Below are positions 33,601 to 39,600 of a DNA stretch of 64,000 nt, one piece after another. The position numbers and the translations under genes are program-made. How positions within the stretch are numbered: position 1 is the stretch's first letter; each line of letters starts with the position of its first letter. This DNA is from Ridgeia piscesae (lineage: Eukaryota; Annelida; Polychaeta; Sabellida; Siboglinidae). Below the pieces are notes generated by a model. That model did no database searches and was not told the origin of the DNA. It saw only the letters and a list, made by a program, of their open reading frames with translations. The DNA lies in assembly GCA_025642075.2 (NCBI GenBank), contig JAODUO010000118.1, positions 986,501 through 1,050,500 on the forward strand. The letters run 5' to 3'.

Positions 33601-36600
33601 AAAGAGTAAGAGATGGGGTGGAGATGGGTGTGTGGTGGAGACAATGTAAATAGAGAGTATTAGAGACTAGGCAAGACTAGGACGGAGGTAAAGAGTAAGA
33701 GATGGGGTGGAGATGGGTGTGTGGTGGAGACAATGTAAATAGAGAGTATTAGAGACTAGGCAAGACTAGGACGGAAGTAAAGAGTAAGAGATGGGGTGGA
33801 GATGGGTGTTTGGTGGAGACAATGTAAATAGAGAGGATTAGAGACTAGGCAAGACTAGGACGGAGGTAAAGAGTAAGAGATGGGGTGGAGATGGGTGTTT
33901 GGTGGAGACAGTGTAAATAGAGAGTATTAGAGACTAGACAAGACTAGGACGGAGGTAAAGAGTAAGAGATGGGGTGGAGATGGGTGTGTGGTGGAGACAG
34001 TGTAAATAGAGAGTATTAGAGACTAGGCAAGACTAGGACGGAAGTAAAGAGTAAGAGATGGGGTGGAGATGGGTGTGTGGTGGAGACAATGTAAATAGAG
34101 AGGATTAGAGACTAGGCAAGACTAGGACGGAAGTAAAGAGTAAGAGATGGGGTGGAGATGGGTGTGTGGTGGAGACAATGTAAATAGAGAGGATTAGAGA
34201 CTAGGCAAGACTAGGACGGAAGTAAAGAGTAAGAGATGGGGTGGAGATGGGTGTGTGGTGGAGACAATGTAAATAGAGAGGATTAGAGACTAGGCAAGAC
34301 TAGGACGGAGGTAAAGAGTAAGAGATGGGGTGGAGATGGGTGTGTGGTGGAGATAAAGTGTGAAACAGTGACACAGTACAACCCTGTACATCTGGGCTGA
34401 CTCAACCGTCATCACTGACAATTCTATTACTAGATGTACTACAAACAACTTAAAGGTCAGTTCTTTGACAAGTCAGTGGCCAAAGGTTTGATTTGGTCTA
34501 AGGTTTGATACGGCAGTACACGATTCGAACCCGGTTCTCTTTGTCGAGAGTCAGAAATCTACCCATTGAACCACTACTTCAAAATAATTCATCACATTTA
34601 TCAAATTATTATAAAGTCTTTCCTTGGAATATGAAAATAAGATGGGCCATTTCGACCTTGCCCAGGATCAGATTATTAAAATTTCTGCATTGTAACTATT
34701 CCTCATACTAATTTATTGATTTGAAACATTCTGGGTGACCTGGTGCAGCTGACCGCGGCCAACTGTGACTGTCCTCTCATGCAAGTCACTATAGCCTGCC
34801 ACTGTGTCAATGTTTGTTTGACGTGATATGTCAACTGTTTGTGGACAAATTTAAGGGGGGCCATCATATTAAGTTTGACTGCACAAAACAAGAAACTGAA
34901 CCATAATTTCTTTTTCATTTTCTAGTCATCTTTAAAAACCTTTAACTGAACAATTGCAATTTGTTATCGACTCTAGTCCTGATTTATATCCGACCTGGAT
35001 AAATAACTGAGGGTCTGAAGTACTTCTATTCAGATGTGCTTATTATTATTAATAGAAAGGTTTCAAGGTGTATCATATCCTACAATGGTCAGTATTTTAT
35101 GTTTGAAACCCCAGTACTATAATTACATGAGCACTTCTGCCAAATATGACCCTTCTGGGTAAATTCTGAAATATCTGGACAGATACACCGAATTCACAGT
35201 CAGTCTTCATAAAAGTAATCAGGATTGTTTTCCTCAACCAAGATATTGATTTATTTATTACACTGTTTACACTGACTTTTCAAAAGATGTCCTGGTTAAC
35301 ATTAATGAAAACGTAACTTTGTATCTAATCAGGGATATGTTTAGCACTGGGGTTTTAGTTCACGATTAAAAAGTTGCAATTTCAAACCATGAGCCACCAA
35401 CTAAGCCTAGGCTCTCTGATGATGTCACAGGACCTCTGAAAACCAATCAGATGCACCAGGCTAACACACTACATGACACTAGCCAAATGTAAAAGCTATC
35501 ACTCAGTACTACTGACCTGGCGCCCAGCACGCATGTGTGTGCTTCTCACTGTGTGCGTTGTACCAGATGAGTTGCCGGCAGCCATCGTATGCCACAGAGT
35601 ACTCGTCATCACCAATACCATAGCCCTCCTGTCAACACAACAACAGAGTACTCGTCACCACCAATACCATAGCCCTCCTGTCAACACAACAACAGAGTAC
35701 TCGTCATCACCGATACCATAGCCCTCCTGTCAACACAACAACAGAGTACTCGTCATCACCAATACCATAGCCCTCCTGTCAACACAACAACAGAGTATTC
35801 GTCATCACCAATACCATAGCCCTCCTGTCAACACAACAACAGAGTACTCGTCATCACCAATACCATAGCCCTCCTGTCAACACAACAACAGAGTACTCGT
35901 CATCACCAATACCATAGCCCTCCTGTCAACACAACAACAGAGGTACTGTTTGTCACCAATACCATAGCCCTCCTGTCAACACAACAACAGAGTATAGCGT
36001 CACAATACCATGGCCCTCCTGTCAACAGCAACAGCAGAATACTCTTAGCACCGATACACAGCCCTCCTGTCAACACAACAACAGAGTACTCATGTCAGAC
36101 AATACCATAGCCCTCCTGTCAACACAACAACAGAATACTCTTTGTCACCAATAATAGCCCTTGTCAACACAACAACAGAATACTCATCGTCACCAATACC
36201 ATAGCCCTCCTGTCAACACAACAACAGAATACTCATCGTCACCAATACCATAGCCACTCCTGTCAACACAACAACAGAAAACTAATTTGGACATCGCTAG
36301 CCCTCCTGTCAACACAACAACAGAATACTCTTTGTCACCAATACCATAGCCCGCCTGTCAACACAACAACAGAATACTCTTTGTCACCAATACCATAGCC
36401 CTCCTTTCAACACAACAACAGAATACTCTTTGTCACCAATACCATAGCTCTCCTGTCAAAACAACAACATAATACTCTTTGTCACCAATACTATAGCCCT
36501 CCTGCAAACAACAACAGAATACTCTTTGTCACCAATACCATAGCCCTCCTGTCAACACAACAACAGAGTACTCGTCATCACCAATACCATAGCCCTCCTG

Positions 36601-39600
36601 TCAACACAACAACAGAATACTCTTTGTCACCAATACCATAGCCCTCCTGTCAACAACAACAGAATACTCGTTGTCACCAATACCATAGCCCTCCTGTCAA
36701 CACAACAACAGAGTACTCGTCATCACCAATACCATAGCCCTCCTGTCAACACAACAACAGAGTACTCGTCATCACCAATACCATAGCCCTCCTGTCAACA
36801 CAACAACAGAGTACTCGTCATCACCAATACCATAGCCCTCCTGTCAACACAACAACAGAATACTCTCGTCACCAATACCATAGCCCTCCTGTCAACACAA
36901 CAACAGAGTACTCTTCATCACCAATACCATAGCCCTCCTGTCAACACAACAACAGAGTACTCGTCATCACCAATACCATAGCCCTCCTGTCAACACAACA
37001 ACAGAATACTCGTCATCACCAATACCATAGCCCTCCTGTCAACACAACAACAGAGTACTCTTGTCACCAATACCATAGCCCTCCTGTCAACACAACAACA
37101 GAGTACTCATCGTCACCAATACCATAGCCCTCCTGTCAACACAACAACAGAATACTCATCGTCACCAATACCATAGCCCTCCTGTCAACACAACAACAGA
37201 ATACTCTGTCACCAATACCATAGCCCTCCTGTCAACACAACAACAGAATACTCTTTGTCACCAATACCATAGCCCTCCTGTCAACACAACAACAGAGTAC
37301 TCTTCGTCACCAATACCATAGCCCTCCTGTCAACACAACAACAGAATACTCTTTGTCACCAATACCATAGCCCTCCTGTCAACACAACAACAGAATACTC
37401 ATCGTCACCAATACCATAGCCCTCCTGTCAACACAACAACAGAATACTCATTTGTCACCAATACCATAGCCCTCCTGTCAACACAACAACAGAATACTCT
37501 TTGTCACCAATACCATAGCCCTCCTGTCAACACAACAACAGAATACTCTTTGTCACCAATACCATAGCCCTCCTGTCAACACAACAACAGAATACTCTTT
37601 GTCACCAATACCATAGCCCTCCTGTCAACACAACAACAGAATACTCTTTGTCACCAATACCATAGCCCTCCTGTCAACACAACAACAGAGTACTCGTCAT
37701 CACCAATACCATAGCCCTCCTGTCAACACAACAACAGAATACTCTCATCACCAATACCATAGCCCTCCTGTCAACACAACAACAGAATACTCGTCATCAC
37801 CAATACCATAGCCCTCCTGTCAACACAACAACAGAATACTCGTCATCACCAATACCATAGCCCTCCTGTCAACACAACAACAGAATACTCATCGTCACCA
37901 ATACCATAGCCCTCCTGTCAACACAACAACAGAATACTCGTCATCACCAACACCATAGCCCTCCTGTCAACACAACAACAGAATACTCTTCATCACCAAT
38001 ACCATAGCCCTCCTGTCAACAGAACAACAGAATACTCGTCATCACCAATACCATAGCCCTCCTGTCAACAGAACAACAGAATACTCGTCATCACCAATAC
38101 CATAGCCCTCCTGTCAACACAACAACAGAATACTCATCGTCACCAATACCATAGCCCTCCTGTCAACACAACAACAGAATACTCGTCATCACCAATACCA
38201 TAGCCCTCCTGTCAACACAACAACAGAATACTCTTCATCACCAATACCATAGCCCTCCTGTCAACAGAACAACAGAATACTCGTCATCACCAATACCATA
38301 GCCCTCCTGTCAACACAACAACAGAATACTCTTCATCACCAATACCATAGCCCTCCTGTCAACAGAACAACAGAATACTCGTCATCACCAATACCATAGC
38401 CCTCCTGTCAACACAACAACAGAATACACATCATCACCAATACCACAGCTCACCTGCTAACATAATTAGCGATGGAATGGTGTATACATACACTGTTCTA
38501 AAACACAATTCCAACTTCTTAGAGGGCCATCACACTTGACAAACTAACTGCTGTCACATAACAATTGCCATCACATGACAAGGGACACATTTCCAAAAAG
38601 CTCCATTTGTTTCATAATAATAATCATATTCACTTGCATATGTCACAAGTCAAACTTGCAGCTGTTAAAACCATACAAGACTATTAAGACAATTATTTGG
38701 AAGATTCAGAAACCACTTCACAACATGTACGGCTTTAATGTCTGGTTTACTGCTGCTGCAGACAGTAACGTACGTAGTTGAGGAACTTGCTGTCCTTTGT
38801 GGCCCAGCCAATCTGCATCACTCCGGCTGTCACCACCGTCACTTCATAGTACCATATCCCAGAATCCACCTGGAATGTGCACCTGACACTCTCGAAGGAA
38901 GACGCGTCGCATCTCGCCTGTCAAACGAACGATCCATGCCGATGACCAATGACAGCTGCACGCTGATCAAAACTACTAAAATTGATTTTATGGTATTCTG
39001 TTAGAACGTCAACCAAGATCATTCGAGTTCAACCGTTTTTCTGCTAATCATAAATGTAGATAATTTTGTTCACTACATGTTGCTTCAAATCAATTGGCTC
39101 TAAATAATGGTGGAAATAATATCTAAACATATACAGTATTATTTACATAAAATTATATGATTTACATAAAACTAAATATGATTGGAATGTATAGTTTTTG
39201 GTATATGGTATACGATAATATTAATAACAAAACTGTTTCAGTGAGCCTTTAGCGCAACTAGCAGAGCTCCAAGTAATTCACAAACATACCTCGAGGCCAT
39301 CAGGTGACAATTTCAGGTACTCGCTGACATCTTTACTATTCAGCATCACTCGAATAGACTTTGTGTCAACTTGCTCATATGTGAACTTGCGACCCTACAA
39401 ATGTCAATAAAATACACCTTACAGGATCATTATCAATCAACCTTCAAATTGTCTTACAACTCGGTAACAATGTTTGGGTCGAAGATGACAGGAGCAAATA
39501 CAAACTATCATTTGTCAGTTTAAAGAGCCACTGTGATAGGCTAATTTTCCTGATACACATATTTCAAACACAATTATTCAGTGATTGTAAAGATGAAGAC

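Follow-up and report, generated by a model that had tools for sequence, protein, structure and literature searches.

Tandem arrays copying acceptor junctions in three introns of the RSPRY1 gene of the annelid Ridgeia piscesae

A stretch of 64,000 nucleotides from the genome of the tubeworm Ridgeia piscesae (Annelida, Siboglinidae; GenBank assembly GCA_025642075.2, contig JAODUO010000118.1, positions 986,501 to 1,050,500 of the forward strand), hereafter the window, hosts on the minus strand an RSPRY1 gene, made up of 14 coding exons and 13 introns, with an open frame once an 11-nt microexon is included. Arrays of tandem repeats reside at three acceptor junctions of this gene, their units fusing an intron end with the beginning of the following exon: 49-bp units are found at exon 10 (array A1), 71-bp units at exon 13 (A2), 55-bp units at exon 14 (A3). 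On its 3' side each array adjoins the authentic exon, and the copies at the 5' edge are degenerate in all three. A preliminary description of the window had treated A1 as a single oddity, a view not compatible with the presence of A2 and A3, which are of the same type and reside in the same gene.

A1 (35629..38461, minus strand) covers 2833 of the 3145 nt of intron 9 (35629..38773, minus strand), or about 90%, its last unit directly adjoining authentic exon 10, which begins at 35628. Tandem Repeats Finder (TRF) assigns to the array a 49-bp period, 58.8 copies and 93% matches (35594-38456). Upon splitting on the minus strand, the array resolves into 57 units of 46-50 nt (38404-35629), to which the degenerate 5'-most copy (38461-38405) must be added. 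The unit is made up by the first 34 nt of exon 10 and 15 nt of the end of intron 9; the composition of the unit, its 57-fold repetition and the share of the intron that it fills had all been anticipated in the preliminary description, and are confirmed here. In the commonest unit the exonic 34 nt are followed by TTGTTGTGTTGACAG, the intron end; this string is exactly conserved in 48 of 58 pieces, 57 of which end in AG. Exactly 49 nt are found in 43 of the 57 units, with 17 distinct sequences among them, and variants in the exonic part fall at few positions, chiefly 21, 22, 24 and 30. With up to 3 mismatches allowed, the window contains 54 occurrences of the 20-mer at the start of exon 10, one of them being that of the exon itself; shuffled sequences yield 0.01 on average. 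All 54 matches are on the minus strand, within A1 or exon 10, and none elsewhere in the window. Neighbouring units differ by 3.0 edits, units in permuted order by 3.77 (0 of 5,000 permutations as low). The six units closest to the exon are all near-identical to exon 10 (edit distance 0-1), and a stretch at about 35970-36500 is more diverged than the remainder.

The 5' edge of A1 (38430..38470, minus strand), where the degenerate first copy lies, features an AG/GTGAGC site at 38453 and a branch-like CTAAT motif. The AGGTRAG string occurs once in intron 9 and four times in the 21.8-kb gene span. Judged from its sequence, the site at 38453 could represent a former acceptor or a recursive (ratchet-like) splice point of zero length.

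A2 (23046..23962, minus strand; TRF row 23025-23962) is formed by 13 units, 11 of 71 bp, one of 64 and one of 70, in which the intron 12 end is joined to the initial 27 nt or so of exon 13, and provides 13 decoy acceptors (TTCAG/ACAC...). Over the first 27 nt of the exon, 23 or 24 residues match in 12 of the 13 units, 9 in the unit at the 5' edge. A3 (21648..21905, minus strand; TRF rows 21634-21821 and 21634-21854) consists of pieces of 55, 55, 56 and 92 bp, in which the end of intron 13 is followed by about 15-20 nt of the start of exon 14. Four decoy acceptors are found in A3, the upstream ones being decayed; of the 20 initial nt of exon 14, 15-16 are matched in the two proximal units.

Tandem boundary copies were monitored at both ends of all 13 introns, over at most 4,000 nt per intron end, the 9.8-kb intron 10 being therefore covered in part. 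Copies lying within the own intron were detected at 3 of 13 acceptors and at none of 13 donors. The three acceptors score 118, 74 and 78, against means of 24, 20 and 17 in first-order Markov randomisations (0 of 200 as high in each case). No decayed copies stood out at the other 10 acceptors and the 13 donors, where at least 24 of 200 randomisations scored as high. Three of the six larger arrays of the gene straddle an acceptor, larger arrays being TRF rows with a period of at least 25 and at least 3 copies, merged when overlapping, with the exclusion of di- to pentanucleotide runs and of 18- and 19-bp arrays of about 2 copies. Upon random placement, three acceptor straddles were obtained in 0 of 20,000 unrestricted trials, and in 3 of 20,000 when exons were spared; counting acceptors or donors, the latter figure rises to 21 of 20,000. 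Exon-sparing placement allowed up to 45 nt of one edge to be covered, and the placement test was devised after the pattern was seen.

Two more arrays of the gene were noted. A 25-bp array of 32.5 copies (TRF; 22106-22908) is located in intron 13, starting 33 nt past the exon 13 donor; its minus-strand consensus, TATTAAACACTTACAGACAACAG, is an acceptor-like string and by eye copies no exon. An 89-bp array of 18 copies with 98% matches (TRF; 32759-34353) resides in intron 10, away from exon edges.

A wrongly expanded or joined repeat might mimic such arrays. The published R. piscesae draft is reported as an Illumina-only assembly with a contig N50 of 10.4 kb (PMC9921365), and repeat numbers are said to differ between two amphioxus assemblies at a comparable locus (PMC3902484). 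Yet the window contains no N, the 43 units of 49 nt include 17 different sequences with private changes and locally similar neighbours, three arrays with different units reside in one gene, and the A1 unit is found nowhere else in the window. An assembly artefact is, on this ground, quite improbable. As the window is free of N, it probably derives from an assembly other than the published short-read draft.

Exons were located by local tblastn with a vertebrate protein, and their boundaries set by AG/GT signals and the reading frame. All lie on the minus strand: exons 1 to 6 at 43753-43452, 42936-42771, 42399-42273, 41445-41387, 41102-41036 and 40529-40395, the 11-nt microexon, exon 7, at 39693-39683, exon 8 at 39290..39394, exon 9 at 38774..38917 (donor GTACGT), exon 10, 112 nt long and including the authentic acceptor, at 35517..35628, exon 11 at 25608..25710, exon 12 at 24914..25069, the authentic exon 13 at 22941..23045, and the authentic exon 14, the last coding one, at 21560..21647. 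The joined exons match RSPRY1 proteins (687 matches, of which the best 120 are listed), and the product holds SPRY and RING domains; the gene had been correctly named, and exon 10 correctly numbered, if counting starts from the first coding exon and the microexon is included. No boundary arrays were found at the junctions of coding exons 1-7 (39683..43753). Intron 3 is of the GC-AG type, with the donor GCAAGT at 42267-42272.

A predicted R. piscesae protein (P0026) is 99% identical over 73% of the query, and 100% identical to the pieces encoded in the window, except for residues at exon edges and the microexon. Lamellibrachia satsuma RSPRY1 is 89% identical over 67% of the query; no named Riftia RSPRY1 was found among the best 120 of the 687 matches. 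Protein matches thus point to a vestimentiferan tubeworm, most likely R. piscesae, as the host, and speak against amphioxus, a candidate that the literature on comparable arrays had brought up. The microexon (39683-39693) encodes FVQD, is missed by the Ridgeia model, which has FCEF, and corresponds to FVQE in Lamellibrachia. The Lamellibrachia gene model stops right after exon 9, the Ridgeia model right after exon 10, and our guess is that the arrays caused both breaks.

Full-length protein is not obtained from any of the upstream acceptors (0 of 57 in A1, 0 of 13 in A2, 0 of 4 in A3), all 74 decoys leading to a stop. Two sets of 57 A1 decoys were used, one formed by the unit starts 38404-35677, the second adding the edge acceptor at 38453 and dropping a unit start lacking AG. 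Stops are met 6-162 nt downstream of the A1 decoy junctions, at 66 nt in 40 of 57 instances. The coordinates and the frame logic of the preliminary description, by which only the last acceptor gives a full protein, hold, with one correction: the insertion length is a multiple of 3 for 20 of the 57 decoys, which meet stops regardless. A rival reading is an unproductive-splicing rheostat, in which decoys would be used to a meaningful extent, stops and decay would set the level of RSPRY1, and the length of the array would tune it. All decoys tested over the three arrays do end in a stop, and the decoy acceptors of A1 are nearly intact, all pieces but one ending in AG; shifted frames of a repeated unit are, however, expected to hold stops anyway, and comparable arrays in amphioxus are reported not to disturb splicing (PMC3087553). 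We regard a rheostat as unlikely. Duplication of the GYG[IV]G motif, which would signal an insert derived from a decoy, was seen in none of 145 proteins, 114 of which hold the motif; this is a weak test, as most species are distant. The set includes 25 zinc-finger matches, and its RSPRY1 part derives from the best 120 of 687 matches.

Acceptor copies in A1 hardly differ in the signals that they carry. The exon 10 acceptor and 51 of the 57 A1 decoys share a pyrimidine content of 0.65. In A3, two decoys have a content of 0.47, two of 0.65, the authentic acceptor of 0.65. In the exon-like A1 unit, TNAY motifs precede the acceptor by 27 and 30 nt, a usual distance for branch points, and fall in that part of the previous unit which derives from the exon. 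As most A1 copies are near-identical, pyrimidine stretches and candidate branch sites included, it is probably by position that the true acceptor is selected. The authentic acceptor is the one nearest to the exon 10 donor, 112 nt away, and would win cross-exon pairing under exon definition, whereas use of upstream copies would lengthen the exon to 161, 210 nt or more. Slippage to one of these copies would introduce a premature stop, and nonsense-mediated decay is expected to remove the transcript.

Folding of the array could, in principle, hide the decoys, or loop the array out and expose the last acceptor. For a 181-nt stretch located at the exon 10 end, predicted folding is stronger than for simple shuffles (z -5.3), and the energies of 196-nt A1 pieces, -41 to -79 kcal/mol, compare with -40.6 +- 16.1 in 86 pieces taken from elsewhere in the gene. 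The signal shrank, and folding was discarded as a discriminator of acceptors, when tandems of shuffled units served as control: z is -1.9 at best, for the exon-like unit (11 of 200 as low), and ranges from -1.4 to +0.5 for three other A1 variants, A2 and A3. In A1, for which openness was predicted, the authentic acceptor (0.025) is moreover as closed as the decoys (0.012, standard deviation 0.022). Predicted RNA structure fails to mark the true exon 10 acceptor, and a role of folding in its exposure is very unlikely indeed. No Rfam family matched positions 21000-44000 above the gathering score, no tRNA genes were detected, and collections of prokaryote and viral contigs held no match to unit DNA, a result to be expected of animal DNA.

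Tandem copies of exon-intron boundaries are called mirages in amphioxus, a name reportedly given in a 2002 paper by Canestro. The preliminary description knew of no described system of this kind; amphioxus mirages provide one (PMC3087553, PMC3902484). In the account of Ebner et al. 2010 (PMC3087553), globin mirages have units of 150-160 bp formed by an intron end and an exon start, BflGb6 haplotypes carry 6 and 3 units, and RT-PCR (reverse transcription PCR) suggests that regular splicing is undisturbed; the same paper cites Adh3 mirages with units of 10-72 bp and somatic instability. Arrays of 60 and 108 bp on PGBD5 splice sites are described in PMC3902484, where TnC is also mentioned. As far as these reports describe them, the mirages of Adh3, BflGb6/BflGb9, TnC and PGBD5 resemble the RSPRY1 arrays in being minisatellite-like tandem copies that span a boundary, with splice signals in many of the copies and the authentic boundary alongside. 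RSPRY1 units of 49, 71 and 55 bp lie within the reported range of mirages (10-160 bp), and units of A1, A2 and A3 all span the boundary and include the splice signal. Amphioxus mirages are reported to have homogenised inner and diverged edge copies; in RSPRY1, A1 neighbours are alike and the 5' edge copies of all three arrays degenerate, yet the A1 units on the exon side are near-identical to the exon. The RSPRY1 arrays differ in their host, an annelid, mirages having been recorded from cephalochordates, which we take as a matter of locality, not of definition. They differ also in copy number, 57 in A1 against 3 and 6 reported for BflGb6 and 2-7 for PGBD5, and in that a single gene has three arrays, each of them at an acceptor, amphioxus mirages being reported at both intron ends. 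On anatomical grounds the RSPRY1 arrays may be filed as mirages in an annelid.

Other systems are less close. Intron gain by tandem genomic duplication (Rogers model), described for potato RdRp (PMC4974935), similarly involves duplications carrying splice signals; in RSPRY1, unlike in that model, no new intron is seen, and an existing one is lengthened. Human duplicated genes contain internal tandem repeats, with units averaging 30 bp and 4 copies, which lie in some cases at exon-intron boundaries; these repeats alter exons, or reportedly form novel introns, in recent paralogs (PMC2812944), whereas the predicted RSPRY1 coding sequence is unchanged. According to PMC12783039, repeats reside in intron 1 of an earthworm metallothionein gene, and duplications of its exon 4 are missing from the final transcript; complete or partial exons are reported inside introns of amphioxus VCBP3 (PMC2632668); the text available for amphioxus huntingtin (PMC2206037) held nothing relevant. 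Among the matches listed in the open-access literature searched, no array of this anatomy is described outside amphioxus. The arrays could also be intermediates of intron change, boundary copies supplying the sequence from which a new intron or exon would form, a model put forward for amphioxus globins. The anatomy is the same as in that model (PMC3087553); the RSPRY1 frame is nevertheless intact with 13 introns and requires no array unit, which makes such a role very improbable.

The explanation that we consider likely is that mirage-type minisatellites were seeded across acceptor junctions, and are tolerated since the copy located most downstream defines the exon, slips to other copies leading to premature stops. 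A short tandem duplication across the acceptor junction would have occurred in each of the three introns, and arrays would have grown by slippage or unequal exchange, neighbours homogenising one another and 5' edge copies decaying. The likeness of neighbours, the near-perfect exon-proximal units and the diverged stretch at 35970-36500 fit repeated local amplification. Growth would be tolerated because the last copy still gives a complete acceptor and exon start. Most likely, the array has no function of its own. The predicted protein P0026 joins exon 9 to authentic exon 10 sequence.

Several points weigh against this explanation. Exon definition as the deciding force is something that we infer from the sequence. 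The last A1 units being 0-1 edits from the exon, the 3' edge was not spared homogenisation. In the 43 units of 49 nt, variation per position is lower in the 15 intronic nt (0.009) than in the 34 exonic nt (0.055), and A1 acceptors may be under constraint. The difference is due to four exonic positions; once positions 21, 22, 24 and 30 are removed by hand the exonic mean drops to about 0.009, and neither part shows sign of special constraint. In A2, all 13 decoys have a pyrimidine content of 0.65, the authentic exon 13 acceptor of 0.59, and sequence strength would there, if anything, favour the decoys. The bias towards acceptors (three arrays, against none on donors) is not significant with n=3. 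The support given by P0026 is weak, as it is a predicted model which misses the microexon and terminates in read-through past the donor of exon 10, and the assembly from which it derives may contain the array in collapsed form.

A wider claim would be that minisatellites repeatedly arise at acceptor junctions in certain animal genomes, independently in lancelets and tubeworms, in which case mirages would be a general class of mutation, and RSPRY1 one instance among many in the genome. Transcription or splicing might expose junction DNA to re-copying, and be a possible cause of such minisatellites. We hold this wider claim as tentative and rather doubtful.

Other features of the window include a zinc-finger-like open reading frame (ORF; 50403-54014, minus strand), 71% identical to a Lamellibrachia sequence, and 93% and about 100% to two further records, the latter match corresponding to 3 differences in 1190 residues. 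The ORF contains a coding 36-bp minisatellite (52869-53262), the number of repeats, by a loose motif count, being 11 in the window and 11, 14, 10 and 17 in the proteins P0001-P0004. A 22-bp array of 83.5 copies (11018-12862) and a further block of 7.8 copies (13153-13324; both by TRF) are found upstream of a minus-strand ORF (7477-9075), which by eye is zyxin/LPP-like and has no Pfam match. A plus-strand ORF of 386 amino acids (30225-31385), located within RSPRY1 intron 10 and with no Pfam match, may be a nested antisense gene, an upstream exon of which would, by eye, lie near 29466. The plus-strand ORF 62876-63106 shows a weak match to CAF1-ribonuclease (23.6 vs. a curated cut-off of 24.2 bits), and by eye is perhaps a TOE1-like exon.

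The breaking off of both tubeworm RSPRY1 models, after exon 9 in one and after exon 10 in the other, calls for caution in the annotation of genes. As far as the open-access literature searched shows, the arrays described here extend mirages beyond lancelets, into a new phylum. With more than 50 near-identical acceptors in one intron, RSPRY1 offers a natural test of splice-site choice: sequence strength can hardly account for the acceptor used in intron 9, position should.

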